Shown: in pieces, positions 45,894 through 64,000 of the stretch
Layout: the number at the start of each line of letters is the position of its first letter
Position numbering within the stretch: position 1 is the first letter of the stretch
Program-made: the position numbers and the translations under genes
Source of the DNA: Zhongshania aquatica
GTDB taxonomy: Bacteria; Pseudomonadota; Gammaproteobacteria; Pseudomonadales; Spongiibacteraceae
Direction: 5' to 3'
Length of the DNA: 64,000 nucleotides
Assembly (NCBI RefSeq): GCF_027257955.1
Contig: NZ_JANZNQ010000001.1
Span: forward strand, 124,001-188,000
Notes under the pieces: model-generated
What the model saw: only the letters and a program-made list of their open reading frames with translations
Databases searched by the model: none
Told to the model about the DNA's origin: nothing

Positions 45894-47165
45894 TTAAGCT
45901 TTATCCAGAGCCTGCGATACATCAGCGATAATATCGTCGATATGCTCAATACCCACCGAAATACGCACTAGGTCGGCGCTCACACCAGCTTTCTTAAGCT
46001 CTTCTTCATTCAACTGACGGTGTGTAGTAGAAGCAGGATGACATGCCAGAGATTTGGCATCGCCAATATTGACCAAGCGCAAAATCATATCGAGCGAATC
46101 AATAAACTTGGCGCAGGCATCAACACCCCCGGTGATACCAAAGCTCAAAATACCGGAGGCTTTGCCCTTGGTAATTTTTTGGCAGCTTGCATAATACGGA
46201 CTATTAGGTAAGGCAGCGTAGTTTACCCACTCTACTTTCGGGTGTTGCTGTAAATACTCGGCAAGGCGTTGAGCGTTTTCACAATGACGATCCATGCGCA
46301 AACCTAACGTCTCTAAGCCTTGTAAAATTTGAAACGAATTCATCGGAGAAATAGCAGAGCCAGTGTTACGCAATGGCACCACTCGGCAACGGCCAATATA
46401 GGCGGCAGCACCTAAGGCTTCGGTGTATACCACCCCGTGGTATGAAGGGTCTGGCTCATTAAGAATCGGAAAACGTTTTTTATTGGCAACCCAATCAAAC
46501 TTGCCAGAATCGACAATAATACCGCCAATCGATGTCCCGTGGCCGCCAATATATTTAGTCAGTGAATGCACCACAATATCGGCACCAAGCTCAAACGGCC
46601 GACACAAATAAGGCGTGGCCACCGTGTTATCTACAATTAAAGGCACACCTTGTTTGTGCGCAATCTCAGCCAAACGCACAATATCTACAATATTACCGGC
46701 TGGGTTACCAATAGATTCGCAAAATATCGCCTTGGTATTTTCGTCAATCGCGTTTTCAAAACCCGCAAAATCATCATGCGACACCATACGCACGTCCACA
46801 CCTTGACGCGGCAGCGAGTGCGCAAACAGATTATACGTACCCCCATACAACTGGCTAGTACTGACAATATTGTCTCCCACCTGGGTAATACACTGAATCG
46901 CATAGGTAATTGCGGCCATACCAGATGCCACCGCCAGCGCCGCAATACCGCCTTCCATCGCAGCCACACGCTTTTCTAACACATCGGTGGTTGGGTTCAT
47001 AATGCGGGTATAGATATTGCCCGGCACAGCTAAATTAAACAGATCTGCACCATGCTGAGTATCATCGAAGGTATACGACGTGGTTTGGTAAATAGGTACA
47101 GCTGCAGCTTTGGTGGTCGCTTCGGACTCATAGCCTTCGTGTAGCGCAATAGATTCGAGTTTCAT
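45894..47165 (-). CDS. metY: O-acetylhomoserine (thiol)-lyase, MetY/CysD type
   Basis: This PLP enzyme makes homocysteine from O-acetylhomoserine and sulfide. The 423-residue protein contains the PLP lysine in VVHSLTKYIGGHGTSIGG, IFCESIGNPAGNIVDI with cofactor-contacting residues, LIVDNTVATPYLCRP and the C-terminal substrate-binding ACHPASTTHRQLNEEE. The full-length LVRISVGIEHIDDIIADV ending is intact. MetZ is excluded by the length and by the MetY-type SIGGIIVDSGKFDW insert. Confidence 0.95.
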   Translation of the reverse strand: MKLESIALHEGYESEATTKAAAVPIYQTTSYTFDDTQHGADLFNLAVPGNIYTRIMNPTTDVLEKRVAAMEGGIAALAVASGMAAITYAIQCITQVGDNIVSTSQLYGGTYNLFAHSLPRQGVDVRMVSHDDFAGFENAIDENTKAIFCESIGNPAGNIVDIVRLAEIAHKQGVPLIVDNTVATPYLCRPFELGADIVVHSLTKYIGGHGTSIGGIIVDSGKFDWVANKKRFPILNEPDPSYHGVVYTEALGAAAYIGRCRVVPLRNTGSAISPMNSFQILQGLETLGLRMDRHCENAQRLAEYLQQHPKVEWVNYAALPNSPYYASCQKITKGKASGILSFGITGGVDACAKFIDSLDMILRLVNIGDAKSLACHPASTTHRQLNEEELKKAGVSADLVRISVGIEHIDDIIADVSQALDKA

Positions 47166-47616
47166 AATATGTCTCGTTTAGATTTATGGTGGTTATATTA
47201 CTAAATAACAGCCTTCTAGTTGGCTTGCGTAACTAAAGTATTAGTCAACAGGATGCATTGTAAACGTATAACAACAATCATAAAAACGTTAAACCAAAGA
47301 TAACCAGATATGCGCCTTTACACACCACGAACATCAATGTCATCAACGTCTTTCGCTACAGTGGGTAATTCTCTTTTTTCAAACCGAACGTTCTGTGACG
47401 CCTCAGTTCCTTTTCATTAAAGCTGGCGGCAACTAACTAAGATCCAGTTGTGTCGCGCTTTTTCACAATACTCGTCGAAGCCGGCAAACCCACCTGTATT
47501 ATCAAAGAGGAGCACGAAGGTATTCTCTCCCAGTGAATATCTCCATGTCGGAATACGTTATTTTCTCAATATCGATAATTAGGCCATCTCGGCCAAACCC
47601 CTATAATAGGATCGTG
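47166..47616. other. Gap with a degenerate coding fragment
   Basis: Most of this stretch shows no gene. On the minus strand a frame ending in TAA at 47417-47419 reads protein-like for about 45 codons (GENTFVLLFDNTGG, FDEYCEKARHNWILVSCRQL) but is cut off by a stop just upstream near 47555 and has no good start. Its location beyond the attC-like site of the marC gene makes it a possible decayed cassette. The right part of the metY leader shows no SAM-riboswitch pattern that I can see. Confidence 0.45.
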
Positions 47617-47676
47617 TTATCGCGTCCAGTGGAGGCCGTTTTTGGGCCGGAACGATTTTTGATAGCCTTGTTAGCT
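47617..47676 (-). repeat. attC-like site at the 3' end of marC
   Basis: Read on the minus strand, the marC stop codon TAA lies inside GCTAACA, the position and sequence expected of the R'' core of an integron attC. It is followed by AAGGCTATCAAAAATCGTTCC, then a GGCC-CAAAAAC-GGCC hairpin and CCACTGGACG, the pattern common in chromosomal-integron cassettes. The matching right half (L'-R', ending GTTRRRY) is not recognisable, so the site looks decayed or truncated near 47610. Confidence 0.5.
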
Positions 47677-48288
47677 CAATGTATTGAAAAGAGCAGTTAC
47701 CCCAACGATGAACATTTGCATGCCGATAACAGCAAGAATTAACCCCATCAATCGAGTGACTATACTAAGACCACTTTTACCAATAACTGACAAAATATTT
47801 GAACTAAAAATAAAGCAAATAAAAGTTATAAGGCATAAAACTGCAAAAACGGATACGGTAGTTAGTATTCCCATCATCCCACCGGATGCAGAGTAATTCA
47901 TTGCCGTTGCAATGGTGCCAGGGCCTGCAAGAAGGGGAACGGCTAAAGGTGATACTGCTAAATCAGATTCATCGTCACTCTCAGCAGAATGCAGCTTGGA
48001 GCCATGCCCATTTAGCATGTGATACCCCACAATAAATACTAAAATACCGCCAGTTATCCTTAATGCATCAATGGTGATGCCAAATAAGTGAAAAATAGCT
48101 TTTCCGAGAAACGAAAAAGATACAATTACAATAAACGTAATAAAAAGTGCCTTAGCCGCAATTTTTTTCTGTTCTGCTTTGCTTTTTTCACCGACCAAAC
48201 CAGCGAACGCAGCTGTATTAGCAATAGGGTTCATAATTGCAAAAAATCCCATAAAAACTGTAATCAGTTGCGTATACAAATCACTCAT
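47671..48288 (-). CDS. MarC-family integral membrane protein
   Basis: The 205-residue protein has six membrane helices and the MarC signature: VFMGFFAIMNPIANTAAFAGL at the start, GKAIFHLFGITIDALRITGGILVFIVGYHML, AVPLLAGPGTIATAMNYSA and RLMGLILAVIGMQMFIVG at the end. Members are annotated as antibiotic-resistance or stress transporters without a proven substrate. The gene is more A/T-rich than neighbours. Its stop lies in an attC-like core and its start 25 bases inside a GTTAGCG junction, so it may be an integron cassette. Confidence 0.88.
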   Translation of the reverse strand: MSDLYTQLITVFMGFFAIMNPIANTAAFAGLVGEKSKAEQKKIAAKALFITFIVIVSFSFLGKAIFHLFGITIDALRITGGILVFIVGYHMLNGHGSKLHSAESDDESDLAVSPLAVPLLAGPGTIATAMNYSASGGMMGILTTVSVFAVLCLITFICFIFSSNILSVIGKSGLSIVTRLMGLILAVIGMQMFIVGVTALFNTLS

Positions 48289-48304
48289 ATTCTTACTGTA
48301 CCTA

Positions 48305-48385
48305 TTGTTGCGCTAACGCTCGCATTTGGGGCGCCGAAGCGACAGCGGAGGCGAGAGTTCCCCCCATAAAGTGGAGGCCATTCGT
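48305..48385 (-). repeat. attC-like site between nucleotidyltransferase and marC
   Basis: On the minus strand this region reads GGCCTCCACTTTATGGGG, then a CTCGCC...GCGAG inverted segment with CGCTGTCGCTTCGGCG, and ends GCGAGCGTTAGCG. GGCCTCCACT is shared with the site after marC. The GTTAGCG at 48311-48317 is a plausible cassette junction, 23 bases before the marC start. The left core (R'') is unclear, so this is a tentative attC. Confidence 0.45.
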
Positions 48386-48409
48386 TTTCAATATTATGCA
48401 GCCGTTCTT

Positions 48410-48880
48410 TCATATTGATTCGGTGATTTGACTGACATCTTCTAGATCAACCTGCCGCGCTAATTTACGCTTATAGGAAATTAATTCGGCTTTCTCCATT
48501 ACTCTAAGCAGCCGGCCATACAGCGAGAGTTTTTTGTACCTTTCAAAATCCAGCTGTTTTTGATGCCATGTTCCTGAGATGGCATCGAATATTCTACATT
48601 CCTTGTCGCTACCTATTTCCACCTTTTGCCCCTCGTATTCGAACTGCACATAAGTGAGGTCCCATTTCTCACCAACATGATGGGCTGGGCCAAATGTAAT
48701 GTAATCCGCACCCATTGACGAAACCTGTGAGATGTAGGAATCGGGGATATAAAGATCAATATCAGCTAACTTCCTTTTAGAACCGTATGCTTGTGCCGCA
48801 AGCCCACCACATACTAGATATGGGATTTCATATAGATCAAGATAATCAATTATCCAATCTAGCGCAGGAATTCTTTCCAT
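48410..48880 (-). CDS. Minimal nucleotidyltransferase-like protein
   Basis: The 156-residue protein has the Pol-beta NTase signature CGGLAAQAYGSKRKLADIDLYIP, in which GG and DxD form the nucleotide and metal site, and a third acidic position in the VEIGSDKECRIF strand. The C-terminal half is helical (FERYKKLSLYGRLLRVMEKAELISYKRKLARQVDLEDV). Similar proteins are found among gene cassettes and as antitoxins or drug-modifying enzymes; the target is unknown. A GAGAG lies before the ATG, and GTTATAC (48902-48908, minus) about 22 bases upstream could be its cassette boundary. Confidence 0.75.
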   Translation of the reverse strand: MERIPALDWIIDYLDLYEIPYLVCGGLAAQAYGSKRKLADIDLYIPDSYISQVSSMGADYITFGPAHHVGEKWDLTYVQFEYEGQKVEIGSDKECRIFDAISGTWHQKQLDFERYKKLSLYGRLLRVMEKAELISYKRKLARQVDLEDVSQITESI

Positions 48881-49096
48881 CAGACTCTCAGCGTGGATTT
48901 CGTATAACAGCTAAATAGACTTCGATACGACGTGATTAAACACGTCACGTACGTATATCCCCAATTAAGATATGCGACATCATATCCTTTATCCCTTTGT
49001 TTATAATCATCTTTCCCTGACTCCTTACACCTTAGTCTTCGACAAACGCCTCAAATTGACCGACCTCCATTGCACTCCTCATTCACTTGAATAGTG

Positions 49097-49111
49097 CTGT
49101 ATAAAAAACAG
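49097..49111 (+). promoter_or_regulatory. LexA-box-like palindrome upstream of the integrase remnant
   Basis: CTGT-ATAAAAA-ACAG flanked by TG and TAC resembles the gammaproteobacterial SOS box (CTGT-N8-ACAG) but with a 7-base spacer. Integron integrases are commonly LexA-controlled, and this element sits about 30 bases before the intI remnant. The remaining intergenic bases 48881-49096 show no other clear element. Confidence 0.5.
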
Positions 49112-49126
49112 TACAAGAAGCGTACT

Positions 49127-49757
49127 ACGTCGTCACCCTTTATTGATTCCATTCGAAGGCATTTGCGTGCGCGCAATTACAGTAAGCGTACCGAGCGAGC
49201 TTACGTGTATTAGATTCTGCACTTTATTCGATTTCATCAAAAAGTACACCCTTCAACATTGGCTGATGATTCTGTGGCGCAGTTTTTGGAATACCTAGTC
49301 GTTGAGCGCAATGTAACGCCGTCTACACTGATAATTGCATTTAATGCCTTGATGTATTTGTTTAAGCAGGTGTTAGGACGAGAGGGGATTCAAATACCGG
49401 ATTATTCCCGTGCGCGCAAAGCTAAAAAGCTGCCTGTAGTTTTGTCGCGGACTGAGGTGAGACAATTTGTGCGCCATGCAGGGTGGCTATTTGATTTGCG
49501 CCCAGCTTAGGTATGGCTCGGGATTACGACTAATGGAGGTCTGTCAGCTTCGTGTAAATGATATTAATTTTGACAAGCTGGCGATTATTGTTCGCGGGGC
49601 TAAGGGGTATAAACAACGTGTTACCACCTCAGCAGAGCATTGCGTGCCTGCACTTCGTCGACAGATTGAATTGGCTAGGGCCTTTCTTACCGAGTGGCAG
49701 TGTTGCCGTCTGGGATGGCCGCTCCGACGTTCTGTTTGGCGCGCGCCCGTTCTATAG
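49127..49757 (+). pseudogene. Integron integrase (IntI-like tyrosine recombinase), degraded
   Basis: The reading frame (PFIDSIRRHLRARNYSKRTERAYVY) is typical of IntI N-termini. It is broken by TAG at 49211-49213, where the family has Trp, then resumes ILHFIRFHQK, LEYLVVERNVTPST, VVLSRTEVRQF. Near 49470-49500 a net +1 frameshift moves it to a frame with YGSGLRLMEVCQLRVNDINFDKLAIIVRGAKGYKQRVT, containing the catalytic Arg (GLRLME) and Lys. Homology ends near 49690: the HxxR and Tyr boxes are missing. There is also no ATG at the expected start. XerC/D are less likely because the LPVVLSRTEV and YGSGLRLME blocks are of the IntI type. Confidence 0.82.
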
Positions 49758-49761
49758 CCAT

Positions 49762-49781
49762 AGTGGGGAGATCTCCCCACT
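49762..49781. terminator. 20-bp perfect palindrome
   Basis: AGTGGGGAGATCTCCCCACT is a perfect 20-bp palindrome 32 bases beyond the stop of the serine hydrolase gene (which reads leftwards) and just after the integrase remnant. With the flanking A-rich run on the right it could be a terminator or binding site; there is no loop or T-run past the stem on the minus strand. Confidence 0.45.
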
Positions 49782-49812
49782 GTAGCAAAAAAATTACAAA
49801 TTGAGCTCCGCT

Positions 49813-51096
49813 TTAAAAGGCAGATGCCAGTGGTCGTAAATATTTATACCCCTGTGGGTTGTTTACTGTCGAAAACATCGCAATAACCACGTCTCGTGAG
49901 GGTGAAACATATAGAGCCTGCCCCTGAAAGCCGGACTTAAAGAGGTCACCATCAGCGAATAGCGCCCCCCACTGAGAAGGCGCGCTAACTGGCGGCTCTC
50001 CGTGAATACTTGCGTCTATTGCCTGCGCTGTTGGTGCATGGCGGTAATAATCAGTTCGCGCAACGTCACCAATGCGAGCCAGCAATTTTTTATTTGCCAC
50101 CTTTGAGTTGTAGCCACTTGGCGTAAACAGCATACCGAAACGAGCTAGGTCTCTGAGACGCGACGAAAACATCCCGTGAGCAATGGCGCGGCCGTCTGGT
50201 GTTAACCCCAACAGGGCATCACCGTCTGCGCCAATTTGTGACCAGATTCGCTGCTGTACGACATCACCATAACGCTGGCCAGTTACACGCTCAATGAGTA
50301 AGCCCAGCATATTCGTATTCGCTGAGGAGTATTGATATGTCTTACCCGGCGGGTTCAAACGCGTCATTTCACGTAAAACCTGATTATGCGTTCCTGCTGC
50401 TAATCCCGGGGCTTTAAGCACTCCTTGGGCAAACATTAGCTTACCGATACCGGAATGTGGATCGCCATATGCTTCAGTTGAATCTACGGCATCTATGCCA
50501 CTGGCTTGATGAAGAATGTGCGCAACTTTAACACCTTCCCAGACCGTTCCCTTGAATTCCTTAAGGTAGGTATCGATGGTGGTGTTGGGGTCAATCTGCC
50601 CCTCCTCAATCAGCATTTCTGTCAGCAGCCCGGCAATGACTTTCGCTACAGACCACCAAAGATGAGAGTCGGTCGGCTGCATACCTGGATACTTCTCGTA
50701 GACAACTTTTCCTTTGTGGATCACGACGATGCCCTGAAGCCTACTAAGCGGCGAATTCACAAATTCATCTAGGCTCAAATCGCCAAGAGATGTTTTTACT
50801 TTAATACCACCGATGCGGCCATTGGGTTTTTCACGAAGACTTTTTATTTGACCATCTCTGCCAAGCAGCTGGTGAGGATAAAACTCAGCCATATTGAGAT
50901 AGGTGTAAAGCGCGGCGTTGCCTGCTAGTCCCAATGCAGCACTTTTATAACTTGCCTTCAGATCAGTCGCTTCGTCAGCAGAGAAGCCATTCTTCGCCTC
51001 GAAAACTGGCCACACACTCTCACCACCGTAGGTAGACGCTGAACTGAGCAGCACAGATATGGCCAATAGAGTAATATTAATCATTCTCTTATTCAT
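49813..51096 (-). CDS. Serine hydrolase of the class C beta-lactamase fold
   Basis: The 427-residue protein has a signal peptide (MNKRMINITLLAISVLLSSASTYG) and the SxxK catalytic pair Ser149/Lys152 in WWSVAKVIAGLL. The YSSANTN segment (Tyr256) stands at the YxN position, and NPPGKTYQYSSAN is typical of the NylB/esterase branch rather than true AmpC beta-lactamases. The periplasmic product may hydrolyse esters or amides. The start overlaps the carboxylesterase gene by 4 bases. Confidence 0.88.
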   Translation of the reverse strand: MNKRMINITLLAISVLLSSASTYGGESVWPVFEAKNGFSADEATDLKASYKSAALGLAGNAALYTYLNMAEFYPHQLLGRDGQIKSLREKPNGRIGGIKVKTSLGDLSLDEFVNSPLSRLQGIVVIHKGKVVYEKYPGMQPTDSHLWWSVAKVIAGLLTEMLIEEGQIDPNTTIDTYLKEFKGTVWEGVKVAHILHQASGIDAVDSTEAYGDPHSGIGKLMFAQGVLKAPGLAAGTHNQVLREMTRLNPPGKTYQYSSANTNMLGLLIERVTGQRYGDVVQQRIWSQIGADGDALLGLTPDGRAIAHGMFSSRLRDLARFGMLFTPSGYNSKVANKKLLARIGDVARTDYYRHAPTAQAIDASIHGEPPVSAPSQWGALFADGDLFKSGFQGQALYVSPSRDVVIAMFSTVNNPQGYKYLRPLASAF

Positions 51097-55861: not shown

Positions 55862-56432
55862 TATATTAGTCAAGAGCGCCCTCAAAGAAGCAAACCTCCT
55901 CTATATACGGACTGAGCTATCTCCCAAGACACGTCAGATAAATGAACAGACGCATTGTAAGATGCATGCCGCATCACGAAGCGCAGCGCTTTATGGCGGG
56001 CTTGTTAAAGCTCGTAGTGCGCACAAGCTTTTCAGACTCCTCCCTAATTCTTACCGCCAGCCACAACGGCGCCCTTACTAAGTCAGCGTTTTGGCTGTCC
56101 AACAACCGCAGGAAGCATAATGCCGCCCCATATTATAAGTAGCGACAATTTACACTGCTTGCCGACTCTGCACGCAAACATCAGGTCTGCCGAATTAGAA
56201 ACGCCACGAAGAGCTAAGGAAAGTCCTTAAGACTGCCGCAATATCAGCGCGTGCAGACTATTTTCCAGCAGCAAAAGCCTTCTCTTCCCTCGTCGTCTTA
56301 AAACTGCTAATTGAATCCGTTGAGCTGCGCCGAAACGCTTGTCGGGTCTTAAAACACGCTCATTGAATACTGACTACTGGAACAAGCGCTCCATAACATT
56401 TAATCTGACGCCAGCTCACGGGGAAGTACATT
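55862..56432. other. Intergenic stretch without a called gene
   Basis: This holds no gene I can support. A 66-codon frame at 55942-56142 (+) has no ribosome-binding site or known motif. A small inverted repeat AAGCGC-A-GCGCTT is visible near 55979-55991. The promoter of the rightward NADAR gene should lie in its right part. Confidence 0.55.
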
Positions 56433-56900
56433 ATGTTTTTTGACAAAAAAGAGACCAAACTCCTTACACTCTCACGGGATGATGCTAATCATCCGCTCGC
56501 GTCGCACTCTAAACATGCCTTTGAGTTAGATGGTTTTGAGTGGCCGTCAGTCGAGCACTACTATCAGGCGATGAAATTTGATGACGCCGAATACCGCGAG
56601 CAGATCCGCAATGCGACACACCCGGCTGAAGCGGCAAAGCTGGGTAAGAGCAAAAAACACACGCGGCGCAAGGATTGGAAGAAAATCAGCGTCACCTATA
56701 TGACCCGCGCCACTTACATTAAATGTCGTACCCATAGCGATGTAGCACAAGTGCTTTTGGACTCGGGTGAAGATGAAATTAAAAATGTTAGCCAATACGA
56801 CTATTTTTGGGGCAGCGGTCGGGATATGCGCGGTGATAACCACTTTGGTAAAATGTTGATGGGTGTTCGCAAAAAGCTGCGGGAAGAACTGGGCAAGTAA
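56433..56900 (+). CDS. NADAR-family (YbiA-like) protein
   Basis: The 155-residue protein matches the NADAR fold, which hydrolyses N-glycosidic bonds of damaged riboflavin precursors (and in some cases ADP-ribose). Seen are NHPLASHSKHAFELDGFEWPSVEHYYQAMKF, RNATHPAEAAKLGKSKKH and YFWGSGRDMRGDNHFGKMLMGVRKKL, where WGSG/GxNxxG line the active site. Starts as a single gene; the PACE gene follows after a 74-base gap in the same direction. Confidence 0.9.
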   Translation: MFFDKKETKLLTLSRDDANHPLASHSKHAFELDGFEWPSVEHYYQAMKFDDAEYREQIRNATHPAEAAKLGKSKKHTRRKDWKKISVTYMTRATYIKCRTHSDVAQVLLDSGEDEIKNVSQYDYFWGSGRDMRGDNHFGKMLMGVRKKLREELGK

Positions 56901-56974
56901 TACACTTGCTCAAATCGCTTTTAATCGCCGCCAAGAAACGTCATACACACCACCCATTTATTTGAAGTAATTTC

Positions 56975-57406
56975 ATGAACCCTAACAGCCGCCGCGTCTG
57001 CCAAGCACTTCTCTACGAGATAGGTGCTGTTGCCTTGGTCACGCCCATTCTCACCTTTGCCTTTGACGCCGAGGTATCGTCGACCCTACCCTTGTCTGTG
57101 CTTATGGCAACCATCGCGCTCATTTGGAACTATGTGTTTAACGCACTGTTTGAGCACTGGGAAAAGAAACAAGTCACCAAGGGGCGGTCACTTCAACGGC
57201 GCTTAGTTCACGGCGCCGGTTTTGAGGGCGGCCTGGTTATTGTACTGGTGCCACTCACCGCATACTGGCTAAATATCAGTTTGTGGCAAGCTTTGCTGGC
57301 CGAGATTGGCTTGCTAATCACCTTTTTCTTCTACGCCATTGTCTTTACCTGGGCCTTCGACAAAGTCTTTGGTCTACCGGCCTCCGCGCAGGAGGCAAAG
57401 GAATGA
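56975..57406 (+). CDS. PACE-family (AceI-like) efflux transporter
   Basis: The 143-residue protein has four membrane helices in two BTP repeats: RRVCQALLYEIGAVALVTPILTFAF with the conserved Glu in helix 1, MATIALIWNYVFNALFEHWE, RRLVHGAGFEGGLVIVLVPLTAYWLN and LLAEIGLLITFFFYAIVFTWAFDKVF. The repeated WNYVFNxxFE/WAFDKVF pattern defines the PACE (proteobacterial antimicrobial compound efflux) family. Substrates may be biguanides or polyamines. Its end overlaps the next gene by 4 bases. Confidence 0.9.
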   Translation: MNPNSRRVCQALLYEIGAVALVTPILTFAFDAEVSSTLPLSVLMATIALIWNYVFNALFEHWEKKQVTKGRSLQRRLVHGAGFEGGLVIVLVPLTAYWLNISLWQALLAEIGLLITFFFYAIVFTWAFDKVFGLPASAQEAKE

Positions 57407-57918
57407 AGCCCGCGTCTAGCAACCGCATTTTGAAATATTTGCAGGGCTATCCTGAGCATTTACAGAATCAAATTCGAACGCTTATCGACGAACAGCGCTT
57501 GGCGGAGTATTTAACAAACCGTTACGGCAAGCAGCACGACATTCAGAGTGACAAGGCACTGTACAGCTACGTAAACAGTTTGAAGCAAGAAAACCTGCGC
57601 AGTGCGCCGCAAATAGATAAAGTGCTTTTTGACAATCGGCTCGATCTCACACACCGCGCTCTAGGTTTACACACGGCGGTGTCACGGGTGCAAGGTGGCA
57701 AGCTAAAAGCGAAAAAGGAAATTCGCATCGCCTCTTTATTTAAAGACACGGCGCCGGAGTTTTTAGAAATGATTGTTGTACATGAACTCGCGCACTTAAA
57801 AGAGCACGATCACAACAAGGCGTTTTATAAACTGTGTACCTATATGCTGCCCGACTACCATCAGCGGGAGTTTGATCTGCGGGTGTATTTAACCGCAAAA
57901 GAGCTAGGGCAGATATAA
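57403..57918 (+). CDS. YgjP/M48-like zinc metallopeptidase family protein
   Basis: The ATG at 57403 overlaps the PACE stop (ATGA). A longer frame from 57283 lies in the PACE gene and is rejected. The 171-residue protein has HxxH-type zinc motif in VVHELAHLKEHDHNKAFYKL, which is the HELxHxxxxxHxxxF of the YgjP (DUF45) family. N-terminal YLQGYPEHLQNQIRTLI is a short helix pair. The activity in the family is debated (UTP pyrophosphatase and protease proposals). Confidence 0.88.
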   Translation: MKPASSNRILKYLQGYPEHLQNQIRTLIDEQRLAEYLTNRYGKQHDIQSDKALYSYVNSLKQENLRSAPQIDKVLFDNRLDLTHRALGLHTAVSRVQGGKLKAKKEIRIASLFKDTAPEFLEMIVVHELAHLKEHDHNKAFYKLCTYMLPDYHQREFDLRVYLTAKELGQI

Positions 57919-57940
57919 CTCTATTCCTATACTAAAAAGA

Positions 57941-58079
57941 CAAGCCCAGATTTATGTCATGAGCGCAGGGATTTTGAACGTCACCGGAGCAGAAGATACG
58001 GAGTTTACACGACAGTAAATGAGTAATCCGAGCACCGCCGACGTTCAAAATACCAAGCGCAATAATAAATCTGGGCTTG
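57941..58079. repeat. 139-base nested inverted-repeat element
   Basis: The outer arms CAAGCCCAGATTTAT (57941-57955) and ATAAATCTGGGCTTG (58065-58079) are a perfect 15-bp pair. Inner arms ATTTTGAACGTC (57971-57982) and GACGTTCAAAAT (58040-58051) pair over 12 bp, with GCGC flanks matching too, and the centre has TTTAC/GTAAA (58004-58019). It fills the gap between the converging YgjP-like and thiolase genes, so it may end both transcripts. Similar sequences are found between genes in other gammaproteobacteria, in my recollection. Confidence 0.7.
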
Positions 58080-58087
58080 GCTAATAC

Positions 58088-59290
58088 CTAGGCTATTTCA
58101 AATAACGCCGCAGCACCCATACCACCGCCAATACACATAGTGACTACCGCGTATTTAACACCACGGCGTTTACCTTCGATTAGGGCGTGACCGACCATAC
58201 GCGCACCACTCATACCAAAGGGATGACCAATCGCGATGGCACCGCCATTCACGTTGAGCTTGTCATTGTCGATACCGAGTTGATCGCGGCAGTAAATAAC
58301 CTGACAAGCAAAGGCTTCGTTCAATTCCCACAAGCCAATATCATCGACTTTTAAACCAGCACGTTTTAGCAATTTAGGAATCGCAAACACTGGCCCAATA
58401 CCCATCTCATCAGCTTTGCAGCCAGCGACAGCCATGCCGCGATAGATACCCAATGGCGCCAAACCTTTTTGCTCGGCCAATTTTCTATCCATGACCACAC
58501 AAGCAGACGCACCGTCTGACAGCTGCGAGGCATTACCGGCGGTAATAAAACGACCCTGCTTCACCCACTGACCATCTTTGAATACCGGCTCCAGCGATGA
58601 GAGGCTTTCCAGTGTGGTTGACGGACGATTGCACTCATCGGTTTCTAAAATAATATCTTTAAACGTGGTTTCTTTAGTCTCTTTATTAAACACCGACATG
58701 CTGGTGGCAAAGGGGACAATCTCCGCCTTAAACAAACCCGCTTGCTGGGCCGCCGCAACCCGCTGCTGACTTTGCAATGAATAGATGTCCTGCGCTTCGC
58801 GGCTAACACCGTAGCGATCAGACACTATTTCGGCAGTCTCAATCATCGGAATGTAAGCAGTGGGATCAATATCCAGAACCGTTTGCGACACATTGCGGTA
58901 GCTATTTTTGTGTTTGGTCTGTACCAGCGAAATAGACTCTAAACCACCGGCAACGGCGATATCAATTTCGTTGCACATAATTGACTTTGCAGCCCAGGCA
59001 ATCGACATCAAGCCGGAGGAACACTGACGTTCAATCGCCATACCCGGCACGCTGTCAGGCAAGCCCCCAGCCACTGCGCACAAACGACCAAGGTTATAAG
59101 CTTGCGTTCCCTGCTGCGCTGCGGCGCCAAAAATCACATCGTCAACAGACGCAGGATCAATGCCCGCGCGCTCAACCGCTGCGCGTACTACGTGGCCACC
59201 CATCGCTGGAGCTTCAGTATTGTTTAATGCGCCGCGAAAAGATTTACCCATTCCGGTACGTGCGGTTGAAACGATAACGGCTTCTTTCAT
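58088..59290 (-). CDS. Thiolase (acetyl-CoA acyltransferase, FadA6-like)
   Basis: The 400-residue thiolase has nucleophile Cys90 in [10 protein letters not shown], the [18 protein letters not shown] loop with the His-x-x-x-Gly, and the second Cys in [12 protein letters not shown]. It cleaves a 3-oxoacyl-CoA in beta-oxidation. Neighbours (IpdF-like SDR, two acyl-CoA dehydrogenases, another SDR) match the actinobacterial KstR2 regulon where FadA6 acts on steroid C/D-ring intermediates; the assignment to that step is inference. Confidence 0.9.
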
Positions 59291-59352
59291 TATGTTGATC
59301 CTTTTAAATTTAATAATTTAATTTTGGCCACTGCGATATACCAGCAGACCGA

Positions 59353-59381
59353 ATTCGTCAGACGTCGGGCGTCAGACGAAT
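59353..59381. repeat. GACGTC-rich short repeat, thiolase-SDR gap
   Basis: ATTCGTC (59353-59359) pairs with GACGAAT (59375-59381) around AGACGTCGGGCGTCA. It belongs to the GTCNGACGTC repeat family described at 9111, 60186 and 61556. It lies immediately downstream of the SDR stop. Confidence 0.6.
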
Positions 59382-59382
59382 A

Positions 59383-60171
59383 TTAGGCTCGCTGTGACGA
59401 ACAACTCACTATTTCACCCGTCATATAGCTAGAATAATCCGAGGCGAGGAACATCATGATATTCGCTACTTCCCACACTTCGGCGCCGCGACCATAGGCT
59501 TCGCGACTTTCCAATTCAGCCAGTAGTTCTTCCGGCGCAGATTTTTTCAGCATAGCGTGTACCGCCAAAGACGGCGCTACCGCATTGATGCGCACACCAA
59601 AATCTGCGGCCTCTAACGCGGCGCAACGCGTCAGCGCCATAACGCCTGCTTTTGCAGCGGCATAATGGGCCTGCTCTTTTTGTGCGCGCCAGCCAAGTAC
59701 AGAGGCGTTATTCACAATCACGCCGTGTCCGCGCTGCTTCATCACTTTCATCATGTAACGGGTCATACGCATGGTGCCATTTAGAGTGACGTCGATAACC
59801 TTATTCCACTCCGGGTCTTCCATCTCGATGAGCAATTTAGTAGTGCCCAAACCGGCGTTGTTAATTAATACATCAACACCGCCAAGCAGCTCTTCAGCGG
59901 TATTAATCAAAGCCTGCACATCTTCCTCTACAGCAACATTGCCGACCTTACCATAGACCTGCTCACATCCCGTTTCAGCTTTGAGTTTTTCGACTGACGC
60001 CGTTAAACGACCTTCATGAATATCGCTAATCACGATGCCACGACAGCCTTCTTCAATCGCTCGCTGAGCCGCAGAGAAACCAATACCTGCACCCGCCGCA
60101 GCGGTGATAAGAACTGATTTACCTTTTAAAAGGCCGTGGCCTTGAACGTATTCCGGGACTTTGATGTTCAT
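59383..60171 (-). CDS. IpdF-like short-chain dehydrogenase/reductase
   Basis: The ATG at 60171 follows GGAGAAAACA; a start four codons upstream lacks this. The 262-residue protein begins MNIKVPEYVQGHGLLKGKSVLITAAAGAGIG, where the TAAAGAGIG nucleotide loop and HGLL prefix recall Rv3559c (IpdF) of Mycobacterium tuberculosis. Catalytic elements are NNAS, the Ser in NNASVLGWRAQ, and YAAAKAGV with Tyr and Lys. The ending DYSSYMTGEIVSCSSQ is also close to IpdF. IpdF oxidises a hydroxyl of the steroid C/D-ring HIP-CoA series using NAD(P). Confidence 0.82.
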   Translation of the reverse strand: MNIKVPEYVQGHGLLKGKSVLITAAAGAGIGFSAAQRAIEEGCRGIVISDIHEGRLTASVEKLKAETGCEQVYGKVGNVAVEEDVQALINTAEELLGGVDVLINNAGLGTTKLLIEMEDPEWNKVIDVTLNGTMRMTRYMMKVMKQRGHGVIVNNASVLGWRAQKEQAHYAAAKAGVMALTRCAALEAADFGVRINAVAPSLAVHAMLKKSAPEELLAELESREAYGRGAEVWEVANIMMFLASDYSSYMTGEIVSCSSQRA

Positions 60172-60185
60172 TGTTTTCTCCATTC

Positions 60186-60280
60186 TGAGTCAGAGGTCAG
60201 ATGTCTGACGTCGGACGCGTAATTACAAAATCTGATTCGATGTCCATTCGCCAGACGTCAGACACCCGACGTCCGACTTT
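60186..60280. repeat. GTCGGA/GACGTC repeat, SDR-ACAD gap
   Basis: The gap contains GTCAGAGGTCAGATGTCTGACGTC, followed by GGACGCG and a second group CAGACGTCAGAC, CCGACGTCCGACTTTTT. The pieces are permutations of the motif (N)GTC(T/G)GA in both orientations and can pair. The T-run at its right end suggests a terminator-like role on the + strand, but no gene reads that way here. Confidence 0.6.
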
Positions 60281-61471
60281 TTAAGGCCTCAATTCCTTCG
60301 GCATTCCCAAACCGCGCTCGGCAATAATATTGCGCTGTATCTGATTGGTACCGCCGTAAATCGTGTCTGAGCGGGTAAACAAGAACAGTGACTGCAGGCG
60401 ATTTAATTCGTACGGTGCGTCTAGCAAAATATCTGCCTCGGCGCCTAAGATATCCATCGCCAACTCGCCAAGATCACGGTGCCACGTGGCCCAGTACAAT
60501 TTATAAATCAGCGCTTCTTTTTGCAGACTGCCATCACCGCTATTCCCTGACAGCATACGCATGCTGTTGTAGCGCATAATTTTCAAACCAATATGTGCGT
60601 CGGCGATACGCTGACGAATGACAGGATCTTTGGCGGCGCCATTTCTCTTTGCCAATGCCACCACTTCATTCAATTCATTTTGAAAGGCCATTTGCTGACC
60701 GAGGGTGGACACGCCGCGTTCATAACCCAGCAAGCCCATGGCCACTTTCCAGCCTTCTCCGGGCTCACCCACAATGTCGCCGGCATCGCATTGTGCATCG
60801 TCAAAAAATACCTCGTTAAATTCCGAGGTACCGGTGATTTGCTCTATCGGCCTAACCGTGACGCCAGGCTGATCCATTTTTATCAGGAAAAAACCTAAAC
60901 CTTTATGCGCCTTCGACTCAGGGTCGGTGCGGGCAATCACAAAGCAATATTCAGATTCGTGAGCTAATGAGGTCCATACTTTTTGACCATTGATAATCCA
61001 CTTGCCACTGGCCTCATCAAGGCGCGCTTTAGTCTTTACATTTGCCAAATCCGAACCGGCACCCGGCTCTGAATAGCCTTGGCACCAAAACTCAGTGCCC
61101 GACAAAATACCCGGCAAATATTTTTTCTTTTGCTCGTCACTACCAAAGGCGATTATGGTTGGCCCCGCCAAGCCGTCGCCAATATGCCCCATACGCCCGG
61201 GTGCGCCGGCGCGCGCATATTCTTCAAAGAAAATAACTTGCTGTTCAATCGACAGACCACGACCGCCGTGCTCCTTCGGCCAACCCACGCAAGTCCAGCC
61301 GCCTTCCGCTAATTTGCGCTCCCACTTCTTGCGCTCTTCCGGAAACATATGCTCATCGCCGGGACCACCGCGAAATTTTAACTGCGCAAATTCGCCCACC
61401 AAATTGTCGGCGAGCCACGCGGCAATTTCGGCGCGGAATTGTTCATCTGCAGGGCTAAATTGTAGTTTCAT
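60281..61471 (-). CDS. Acyl-CoA dehydrogenase (IpdE1/FadE30-like)
   Basis: The 396-residue flavoprotein follows the ACAD fold: N-terminal helical domain with GWPKEHGGRGLSIEQQVIFFEEYARAGAP, the FAD-binding WCQGYSEPGAGSDLANVKTKARLD and WTSLAHESEYCFVIART, and C-terminal DTIYGGTNQIQRNIIAERGLGMPKELRP. The full-length ending of this size matches the steroid-degradation FadE group. In M. tuberculosis, FadE30 (IpdE1) pairs with FadE33 (IpdE2) on the HIP-CoA side chain; the second ACAD gene here may be that partner. Confidence 0.9.
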   Translation of the reverse strand: MKLQFSPADEQFRAEIAAWLADNLVGEFAQLKFRGGPGDEHMFPEERKKWERKLAEGGWTCVGWPKEHGGRGLSIEQQVIFFEEYARAGAPGRMGHIGDGLAGPTIIAFGSDEQKKKYLPGILSGTEFWCQGYSEPGAGSDLANVKTKARLDEASGKWIINGQKVWTSLAHESEYCFVIARTDPESKAHKGLGFFLIKMDQPGVTVRPIEQITGTSEFNEVFFDDAQCDAGDIVGEPGEGWKVAMGLLGYERGVSTLGQQMAFQNELNEVVALAKRNGAAKDPVIRQRIADAHIGLKIMRYNSMRMLSGNSGDGSLQKEALIYKLYWATWHRDLGELAMDILGAEADILLDAPYELNRLQSLFLFTRSDTIYGGTNQIQRNIIAERGLGMPKELRP

Positions 61472-61493
61472 GATGTAATGCTCGCTTTATGCT

Positions 61494-61632
61494 GGACGGG
61501 AGATGGGAGGCGCAAAAAATGGCTTCCCCTGTGTCTACCGTCTCTCATATTAAATCGCCGGTCGGATGTCTGACGTCGGAGGTAAAGGCTATGTTCAGAG
61601 ACATCGTCCGACTTCCGACCTCTGACGTCCGA
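61494..61632. repeat. Short repeat elements between the two ACAD genes
   Basis: The left part (61494-61545) has GGACGGGAGATGGGAGGCGCA and CCGTCTCTCAT, which resemble bases 2559-2680 between purH and purD (GATGGGAGACC, CCGTCTCTCAT). The right part (61561-61632) has GTCGGATGTCTGACGTCGGA, CATCGTCCGACTTCCGACC and TCTGACGTCCGAC, the same family as at 9111, 59353 and 60186. Confidence 0.6.
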
Positions 61633-62787
61633 CTAATCAAGTAAAACCCCCGCTACTCGCTCGCGGTGATAAACGCTATTACCCAAAAAATGTTCACTTG
61701 CTTTTGCGCGTTTAAAATATAAATGCACATCGTATTCCCAGGTAAAACCGACACCGCCATGCATCTGCAAGGCTTCGCCTGCGTTTTTAAAATACGCTTC
61801 TGAACAATAGGATTTCGCGATGCTCGCGGCCTCAGCCAGCTCATCGGCTAAGGGCCCTGCGCTAAGTGCATCATCCGCAATACAGGCGGCGTAGTAGACC
61901 GCTGAGCGCGCGACTTCATTGCGCAGCATCATGTCGGCAGCTTTGTGTTTTATGGCTTGGAAACCCGCGATTGCGCGGCCAAATTGATTGCGGCTCTTGG
62001 TGTAATCCACCGTGATATCTAAAATTTGCTGCATACCTCCCGCTTGCTCAGCAGCTAAGGCGACGGTGGCGAGGTCTAGTATTTTCGATAAGGCTTTTGC
62101 GGCTGTACCGAAGTCACCCATGACACTTTCAGTGGGCAAGCGTAGATCAGTTAATTCAATCGCCGCTTGGCGCCGGCTTTGATCCATGGTCGGCAATAGA
62201 CTGCGCTTAATGCCATCGGTATCTGCCGCACAGACAAATAGGCTAATACCTTCTGCGCCAATGCTACCCTCTTCACGGGCTGCAATAATTAAATAATCGG
62301 CACTGTGCCCATCGAGTACATAGCGATACTGGCCGTTGAGAATGGCGGTGTCGCCGTCACGTTTATAGCTTGCGGTCACCGCATCCGCACTCCAAAGATT
62401 GCTGCCGCCGTTAAAAGCGAGGGTGGCGGTTTTACCTTCAATAAGCTGGGGAAGAATCTCAGTTTTTTGATCGTCAGTACCGGCGATCAATAAGGCGTTG
62501 GTAGCCATTGCCACGGTGGCAAGGTAGGGAGAGCACAGCAGATAGCGGCCCATTTGCTCCAGCACGGCGACCAGCTCGACATAGCCTAAGCCCATGCCGC
62601 CGTATTCTTCTGGAATATGCAGGGCCTGCCAATACATATCAGTGCAGATGCGCTGCCAAAGATCGGGGGAGTAACCCAGATCACTTGCCATAGCACTGCG
62701 AATAGCTGCGCTGGTGGAAGCGTCTTTAAGAAAAGACGCCGCCGTGTCGCGGATCATTTCTTGTTCTTGCGTAAATGCGAATTCCAT
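61633..62787 (-). CDS. Acyl-CoA dehydrogenase (IpdE2/FadE33-like)
   Basis: The 384-residue flavoprotein has the N-terminal AFTQEQEMIRDTAASFLKDA, WQALHIPEEYGGMGLGYVELVAVLEQMGRYLLCSPYLA, then a middle region where the usual EPxAGSD loop is replaced by NGGSNLWSADAVTASYKRDGD, and QMHGGVGFTWEYDVHLYFKRAKASEHFLG at the end. The altered loop is typical of the partner subunits (IpdE2 type) that may not bind FAD as in ordinary ACADs. It is 145 bases before the next ACAD in the same direction. Confidence 0.88.
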   Translation of the reverse strand: MEFAFTQEQEMIRDTAASFLKDASTSAAIRSAMASDLGYSPDLWQRICTDMYWQALHIPEEYGGMGLGYVELVAVLEQMGRYLLCSPYLATVAMATNALLIAGTDDQKTEILPQLIEGKTATLAFNGGSNLWSADAVTASYKRDGDTAILNGQYRYVLDGHSADYLIIAAREEGSIGAEGISLFVCAADTDGIKRSLLPTMDQSRRQAAIELTDLRLPTESVMGDFGTAAKALSKILDLATVALAAEQAGGMQQILDITVDYTKSRNQFGRAIAGFQAIKHKAADMMLRNEVARSAVYYAACIADDALSAGPLADELAEAASIAKSYCSEAYFKNAGEALQMHGGVGFTWEYDVHLYFKRAKASEHFLGNSVYHRERVAGVLLD

Positions 62788-62864
62788 ACTGTCTCCGAAA
62801 CCAGACAGCGACCTTTACATTTACGCAAGCTGCGACGCGTATAACGCCGCAGCTTAACAACTGT

Positions 62865-63407
62865 TTATAGACGCAGTTGCAAACGTATGAAGGCACCGTC
62901 TTCAAATTCAAATTTGCCGCCAGTGTCAGCGTCAAATTCCATATCACCGTAACCAACTTGAATGGCGGAGTTTTGGAAAATAGTAAACTCCGCGCTCACC
63001 GACCATTCTTTATAACCGTCAATATCACCAAAGCCAGTTGCATCGGGGGCGTAGTACAAACCGCCGCGCAAACTGACGATTTCATTTAAAGGCAAACGCA
63101 AATCGCCACCAAAGGCGACCGCACCGCCATCCAGATCAGTTGTGTCATCACCGTCTAAGCCGATGGCTTTTGCGCCAACCCGTCCGCTCAAGGCGCCGCG
63201 CTGACCATTTGCATACAGTCCCAAAGCCACTAAATTAGCGCCATCTTCGTGGTGCAGCACATCGAGCTGAGCACTACTTTCCGGGCTCATGTCACCAGCA
63301 ACAGAAACACCGAAACTGTCGTCACCAAAACGAAAAGCAACACCGCCGGCAAAGGCCGAACTGCTTGTAATGGCTAACACGGCGGCTGCGATTAAAGGGG
63401 CTTTCAT
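62865..63407 (-). CDS. YfaZ-like outer-membrane protein
   Basis: The 180-residue protein has a signal peptide ending SSSAFA and mature beta-strands GGVAFRFGDDSFGVSVAGDM, LVALGLYANGQRGALSGRVGAKAIG, FGGDLRLPLNEIVSLRGGLYYAPDATGFGDIDGYKEWSVSAEFTIFQNSAIQVGYGDMEF and FIRLQLRL with a C-terminal Leu. This matches the YfaZ outer-membrane family. Its place in a steroid-type catabolic cluster suggests a possible substrate-uptake or cell-envelope role; unproven. Confidence 0.75.
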   Translation of the reverse strand: MKAPLIAAAVLAITSSSAFAGGVAFRFGDDSFGVSVAGDMSPESSAQLDVLHHEDGANLVALGLYANGQRGALSGRVGAKAIGLDGDDTTDLDGGAVAFGGDLRLPLNEIVSLRGGLYYAPDATGFGDIDGYKEWSVSAEFTIFQNSAIQVGYGDMEFDADTGGKFEFEDGAFIRLQLRL

Positions 63408-63445
63408 GGTCGTGATTCTCCTGATGTAAACGTCAAAGGATAAAA

Positions 63446-64000
63446 TCAGCTACCATACACTTTTTGAGCCGGTACTGCCTCCGCCATGAGCGTTTTTACC
63501 GCTTCGCCAACCTCAGCAGGCTCCCAGCGCGCGCCCTTATCTACTTCGGGGCCCTTGCGCCAACCGTCAGCGAGGGAGATTTTTCCGCCCTCTGCCTCAA
63601 ACACACAACCAGTTACATGCGCTGATTCACTGCTGCCTAACCACACCAGTAGTGAAGACACATTTTCCGGTGCCCAAAAATCAAAGCTGCCATCGTCTGG
63701 CTTCGCCATGCGGGTGGCCATGGCCTCAACCGCCGTGGTCATATTGGTACGGGCTGCCGGTGCGACCGCATTCGCGGTAATACCGTAGCGGGCAAGCTCA
63801 GCGCCTTGGTTTAACGTCAGTGCAGCGATACCCGCTTTAGCAGCGGCATAATTTGATTGACCAATTGAGCCCTGCAAACCAGCACCCGAGGTTGTATTTA
63901 TAATGCGCGCATCGACAGGCTTACCCTCTTTGGATTTACCACGCCAGTAATGAACGGCGTGTGAAGTGATGCAAAAATGGCCTTTTAAATGCACGGCCAT
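63446..64000 (-). CDS. Short-chain dehydrogenase/reductase, C-terminal part (5' end outside window)
   Basis: The frame runs off the right edge, so the N-terminal Rossmann loop is missing. Seen are VHLKGHF, the Ser in INTTSGAGLQGSIGQSNYAAAKAGIAAL (with the Tyr and Lys), the NAVAPAARTNMT loop and a long C-terminal extension with APENVSSLLVWLGSSESAHVTGCVFEAEGGKISLADGWRKGPEVDKGARWEPAEVG. That ending recalls the Rv3548c group of SDRs in the mycobacterial KstR2 locus. A hydroxyacyl-CoA or steroid hydroxyl is the likely substrate. Confidence 0.88.
   Translation of the reverse strand: MAVHLKGHFCITSHAVHYWRGKSKEGKPVDARIINTTSGAGLQGSIGQSNYAAAKAGIAALTLNQGAELARYGITANAVAPAARTNMTTAVEAMATRMAKPDDGSFDFWAPENVSSLLVWLGSSESAHVTGCVFEAEGGKISLADGWRKGPEVDKGARWEPAEVGEAVKTLMAEAVPAQKVYGS

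Follow-up and report, generated by a model that had tools for sequence, protein, structure and literature searches.

Evidence for a decayed chromosomal integron with two cassette genes beside metY in Zhongshania aquatica

Does the block between metY and a hydrolase operon in Zhongshania aquatica, in which a broken integrase reads away from two genes on the opposite strand, represent the remains of an integron? The initial annotation of the 64,000-nucleotide stretch of DNA analysed here (the window) had proposed a fossil integron locked into the chromosome. Our analysis supports this reading in substance, through the match to IntI, the gene order and the attC half-sites, and the locus is very probably a decayed chromosomal integron with two cassette genes, the integrase of which is dead.

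A profile search with the integron-integrase model TIGR02249 showed that the interval 49139-49757 (+ strand) holds pieces of a single integron integrase. The N-terminal part of the pseudogene (49139-49510, + strand) covers profile positions 1-113, and the middle part (49467-49757, + strand) covers positions 114-185 in a shifted frame. In the genome-wide search the model matched C19:173139-173477, on the contig of the window, with 103.8 bits and one TAG inside the match, and the premature stop codon that had been reported was confirmed as the TAG at 49211-49213. The open frames 49259-49510 and 49467-49757 overlap, and the frame changes between them near 49490, in agreement with the frameshift placed earlier near 49480. 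The profile match ends at position 185 of 315 and tblastn similarity extends to about 49750; the C-terminal catalytic part, to which the HxxR and Tyr boxes belong, is missing, as had been claimed. A functional integron integrase has the RHRHY set of catalytic residues. The lesions observed directly here (TAG, frameshift and missing C-terminal part) mean that the intact integrase of a functional integron was not found. A remnant of XerC/XerD or of a phage integrase was rejected, since TIGR02249 outscored the Xer models for both pieces: 49259-49510 alone scored 56.9 bits, against 14.1 for XerA_Arch (the best Xer-type model) and 11.6 for XerC, and 49467-49757 scored 69.3 bits, against 40.4 for XerA_Arch (again the best Xer-type model) and 34.5 for XerC. 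Both pieces are thus closer to IntI than to Xer models, as in a chromosomal integron.

The integrase (+ strand) points away from the two genes, which both lie on the − strand; this is the integron polarity that had been described, and the genes, being on the strand opposite to intI, reading away from it and standing beside an attI-like core, are oriented as cassettes. The core GTTATAC (48902-48908, − strand), taken as the junction between attI and the first cassette, was recognised in the sequence by eye only; for comparison, the cores beyond intI are CTGTTAGGTG in the host's second integron on contig C33 and CTGTTATAAC in L023. No attC-like similarity was found on the attI side (169 of 200 controls were as good), as is expected for attI. 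The first gene, for a nucleotidyltransferase, starts 21 bases after GTTATAC and the second, marC, 22 bases after GTTAGCG (earlier counted as about 22 and 23), and at both genes this short spacing from core to start codon is cassette-like. Both are A/T-rich, as had been stated, with GC contents of 0.385 and 0.420 compared to 0.488 for the window. A LexA-like box, CTG-N9-CAG (49097-49111), begins 42 bases before the start of the IntI profile and is one base shorter than the boxes of relatives. Of 25 IntI upstream regions examined in the host genome and its relatives, 16 contain CTG-N10-CAG, compared to 8 of 500 mononucleotide shuffles. Among the three nearest IntI relatives it is located at −44 in L013 and L015 and was not found upstream of IntI in L021. 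The box in the window is read as a putative LexA site minus one base. Comparison of the stretch before IntI with relatives gave blastn matches of 9-12 bases only. With regard to a cassette promoter Pc, 47170-49900 showed no excess of promoter-like sequences (3 found, 5.6 expected).

Each gene is followed by what appears to be a decayed attC. The one after marC (47593-47676, − strand) is recognisable in its 5′ half only (about 47617-47673), with the marC stop codon TAA (47671-47673) inside the core AGCTAAC, as first noted; the one after the nucleotidyltransferase gene (48312-48399, − strand) is recognisable in its 3′ half only (about 48314-48353). The reference set consisted of 13 attC sites from the C33 array, extended to 102 sites from the genus and its sister genus, the window excluded. 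The best local score was 55 for the trace after marC, against a C33 attC, and 48 for the trace after the nucleotidyltransferase gene, against a different attC. None of the 400 controls per site (200 window stretches and 200 Markov-chain sequences) reached these scores, the maxima being 29 and 33 for window stretches and 31 and 32 for Markov-chain sequences.

The fold of the two sites was examined with a covariance model (R1) for which 74 of the 102 sites passed cuts on score and length and 60 of those were aligned, stem pairs and unpaired base being taken from what its own alignment shows. The model detected sites outside its training set well (54.2 bits in L127, 56.8 bits in L221). With default filters it gave no match at E<=10 in the 64-kb window, so that neither trace was detected; with filters off over 2.1 kb, the marC site gave E 0.48 and the nucleotidyltransferase site E 7.3 (not significant), and by this model the attC fold is not above background. 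The best covariance-model match in the block, 47266-47293 (E 0.14), consists of two cores around 13 bases only and was dismissed as chance. An initial attC scan with strict settings gave no site in the block, and Rfam gave no match in the window at gathering scores. In the half-site matrix scan the marC site scored 16.4, which is no evidence alone because 54 matches of at least 16 were found on both strands of a 440-kb control, in which half-sites came under a stricter cut (2 versus −3) and the stretches include at least one real attC (L122). The earlier claim of attC-like sequence after the genes therefore stood with respect to half-site similarity and not with respect to detection by the covariance model. 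Half-site homology without a covariance-model signal is what decay would leave, and both traces seem to be recognisable by descent and not as working structures.

The first cassette gene (48410-48880, − strand) encodes a small nucleotidyltransferase of 156 aa; its reading frame and that of marC are both open. The GG...DxD...E positions, nearly invariant in the family, are kept in an alignment of 12 sequences, from which two of 13 relatives were left out (L220, the frame of which enters the next gene, and L228, a fragment). PDB profile matches were obtained with TM1012 (E 1.4e-7) and, weakly, with a lincosamide resistance protein (E 4.4e-4); on such similarity the gene is not called a resistance gene. 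It is probably still under selection. Among 390 genomes belonging to the order, 14, the host's own included, have a match at E<=1e-8. The 13 other relatives were all scanned with the matrix, six of them also with the covariance model, and one (L218) lies between two attC sites, of which the upstream one is weak (E 0.082) and the other has E 0.0015. L217 lies beside one attC site (covariance model E 2.3e-5), and so does L070 (E 4.9e-7), a site that belongs to the training set and a gene that is cut short at its 5′ end; in L221 a matrix match overlaps the stop codon and is not in the covariance-model list at E<=1. L070 is the one partial relative within the genus (53%), located elsewhere, behind an attC.

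The second cassette gene, marC (47671-48288, − strand), encodes a MarC/NAAT-family membrane protein of 205 aa (PF01914, E 1.5e-49). Comparison with 10 relatives gave dN of 0.075-0.132 and, in nine of ten, dN/dS of 0.03-0.10, ratios that are rough because dS was saturated against the tenth relative and above 1 in the other nine. The marC family is under purifying selection. The window's marC was found in none of 17 congeners, whose MarC proteins match it at only 28-34%, suggesting that this MarC is foreign, unlike the genus's own. Among the best 80 of 293 confirmed relatives, the loci of which were compared, marC lies between attC sites in two: L147 from Shewanella marisflavi (81% identical; attC before the gene E 0.00078, after it weak, E 0.87) and L184 from an uncultured proteobacterium (71% identical; E 0.0017 and 7e-7). 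A flank similarity scan of 54 of the 80 loci was positive on both sides for the same two (129/46 and 59/42, respectively), and L151 was just above controls on one side (score 30, compared to a maximum of 29 in 144 controls). Elsewhere marC is mostly not a cassette, 78 of the best 80 relatives being without attC on both sides. Cassette status elsewhere was thus observed for marC in L147 and L184 and for the nucleotidyltransferase in L218 (two flanking sites) and in L217 and L070 (one adjacent site each). Plasmid-borne relatives of either protein were all less than 60% identical at the E-value limits used. In Neptuniibacter pectenicola (L139, from about 6611), the end of marC is made up of four copies of a unit containing TGAGCTAACAAA, and an attC-like core is present in each of the four units.

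The lineage of the fossil integrase was examined in trees, one per piece, of 21 sequences each; five of 24 reference loci yielded no protein by the filter and were dropped. In both trees the fossil pieces fall with two sister-genus genomes, G018 and G019 (local support 0.965 in the tree of piece A and 0.801 in that of piece B), and with a genome from the same order, G023 (0.923 and 0.985). G020, a third sister-genus genome, is placed apart; the blast results agree with the grouping. The IntI of the C33 integron groups with congeners, apart from the fossil. The case that the fossil's IntI lineage belongs on the sister-genus side and is not that of C33 appears good but not final, the pieces being short.

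The C33 integron (L009, G000:C33, 458-8581) is a cassette array with 13 attC sites, all 13 of which were detected by the covariance model, 10 of them being in its training set. Its IntI matches the profile over the full length, has a single in-frame TGA and is the sole IntI over the cut-off in the draft assembly; congeners hold IntI genes without stops. The layout of this integron is the same as that of the fossil, whereas its IntI lineage is another, its box is CTG-N10-CAG and all its attC sites are detected by the model. A third, broken IntI of the host genome lies on contig C39 (L010, 953-1421), where the covariance model found no attC at E<=1 and the matrix scan listed two. About 14 kb to the right of the window on C19, the interval 13860-15314 of L127 is an attC cluster without an integrase: it has three good attC sites separated by small genes, lacks an IntI match and lies largely in a stretch without a match in G008. 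The host genome holds integron loci at several stages, with C33 nearly intact, C39 broken, the fossil on C19 and the attC cluster.

The neighbourhood was compared among relatives. Neither marC, the nucleotidyltransferase nor the IntI pieces were found by tblastn (E<=1e-4) in the metY regions of seven relatives (G002, G003, G005, G006, G007, G008 and G010). With respect to the check suggested earlier, whether relatives lack the block or carry an intact intI there, the block was not found at any of these seven metY regions, and G008 has a decayed IntI tail. Conserved synteny, named earlier as an argument against an integron, was not seen in the genus, where marC is in 0 of 17 congeners and the one partial nucleotidyltransferase relative is elsewhere. 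Here metY (45894-47165) lies to the left of the fossil; in G008 it is on another contig, and in G005 and G007 it is flanked by homologues of window 56431-56891 on one side and 56963-64000 on the other, so the position of metY is changeable among relatives. A decayed IntI tail and a palindrome adjoin the hydrolase operon of G008 (96% identical protein), where the cassettes were not found. Between the window and G008, 32 of 193 aligned bases differ in the IntI tail, compared to 48 of 1284 in the hydrolase gene, the greater divergence of the tail being expected of unconstrained sequence. No IntI piece was found within 1.5 kb of the 53-54% identical hydrolases of G002, G003, G010 and G017, and the distant hydrolase of G007 had one weak IntI match of 31 residues (E 0.034).

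The palindrome (49750-49793), at the end of the IntI homology, is common to the window and G008; a repeat family was rejected, the 20-base core occurring at one genome site with up to two mismatches allowed. An inverted partial copy of its arm lies near metY (47351-47373), and this inverted repeat (47351-47373/49768-49790; 11 exact bases, 83% over 23) flanks the whole block. None of 200 shuffles reached 11 exact bases, the compared regions being chosen after the fact, and the repeat may represent the borders of the block or chance. A third decayed frame, at 47417, had been proposed as a further cassette gene; this found no support, since five pieces of it (one query piece lacking a residue) had no match in Pfam and the loci compared gave no tblastx match and blastn matches of 15-20 bases only.

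It is conceivable, though improbable, that the block is a composite in which the decayed remnant of an IntI and two genes with bits of attC were joined by unrelated rearrangements. The displaced metY of G005, G007 and G008, the lack of a match of at least 300 bases to 26353-49562 in the G008 stretch compared and the uneven decay across the block would suit such a history, but the parts follow one another, and are oriented, as in an integron (IntI, LexA-like box, attI core, gene, attC, gene, attC), and the short core-to-start spacings are those of cassettes. That the two are ordinary chromosomal genes, with attC-like stretches arising by chance beside an unrelated tyrosine recombinase remnant, is hardly credible: none of the 400 controls came up to either attC score, the integron-integrase model beats the Xer models and MarC is far from the genus's own, although no significant attC emerges from the covariance model and 78 of the best 80 marC relatives lack attC on both sides. 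The failure of the model on both window sites also counts against the integron reading, as do the rarity of marC between attC sites elsewhere, the weak downstream site of L147 and upstream site of L218 and the want of a promoter-like excess in the block.

With a decayed integron as the preferred reading, we infer capture by IntI, an order of decay, present immobility and expression from the homology, lesions, gene order, half-sites and homologues described above. A small chromosomal integron, with an IntI lineage other than that of the host's second integron, would have captured at least two cassettes at attI, the nucleotidyltransferase and then marC, in the usual polarity. The integrase would then have become inactive, having acquired a stop codon and a frameshift and lost its C-terminal half, the LexA-like box would have become one base short and each attC would have lost one recognisable half. 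Because IntI is lost and the attC sites are damaged, the cassettes would no longer be excised by their own system and would stay as ordinary chromosomal genes, presumably immobile and locked in the chromosome.

Of the published work compared here, PMC2426708 is presumably Nemergut et al. 2008, and PMC3108266 we take to be Cambray et al. 2011. The locus can be set beside several known systems. In chromosomal integrons nearly one third of intI genes are reported to be pseudogenes, and about one fifth of intI carriers to have more than one intI (PMC2426708). As in those integrons, IntI is broken here by stop codon, frameshift or deletion; in the window, by contrast, decay has reached the attC sites as well, and no more than two cassettes can be recognised. 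In Xanthomonas, loss of intI is followed by stable remnants with few cassettes, the CALINs of X. citri pv. citri all having the same two cassettes (Colombi et al. 2025, PMC12444791). The window shares intI inactivation and few stable cassettes with these remnants, which are called by attC with intI gone, whereas in the window an IntI piece stays and attC is below model detection. LexA governs many intI genes, and loss of its control correlates with integrase inactivation, as stated in PMC3108266; the dead IntI and damaged LexA-like box agree with this correlation, of which the window is a single instance. A topic-based title search of the literature on chromosomal, inactivated or fossil integrons gave no title about this locus.

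Integrase decay with stable cassettes is already well documented, and this locus is a sound but ordinary instance. It offers a controlled example of integron genes turning into ordinary chromosomal genes, and a model of intact attC misses such fossils, implying that cassette-derived genes may be undercounted. The MarC family is scattered mostly over marine gammaproteobacteria. A more far-reaching and rather doubtful idea is that integron death acts as a one-way installer, a circulating MarC cassette being fixed when attC and integrase both decay; if so, many chromosomal MarC copies without attC would be former cassettes and the locus a halfway stage.

A previously unremarked feature is a tract that has the fossil as its left edge. 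From 49563 to about 84000 (C19 about 173563-208000), blocks are 86-97% identical to G008, the right edge being approximate as it falls at the border of two compared pieces; to the left, 26353-49562 has no match of at least 300 bases in the G008 stretch compared. The blocks flanking the tract on either side are 73-87% identical. The tract measures about 34 kb and resembles the product of a recent interspecies recombination with G008; on the left it begins in the IntI fossil.
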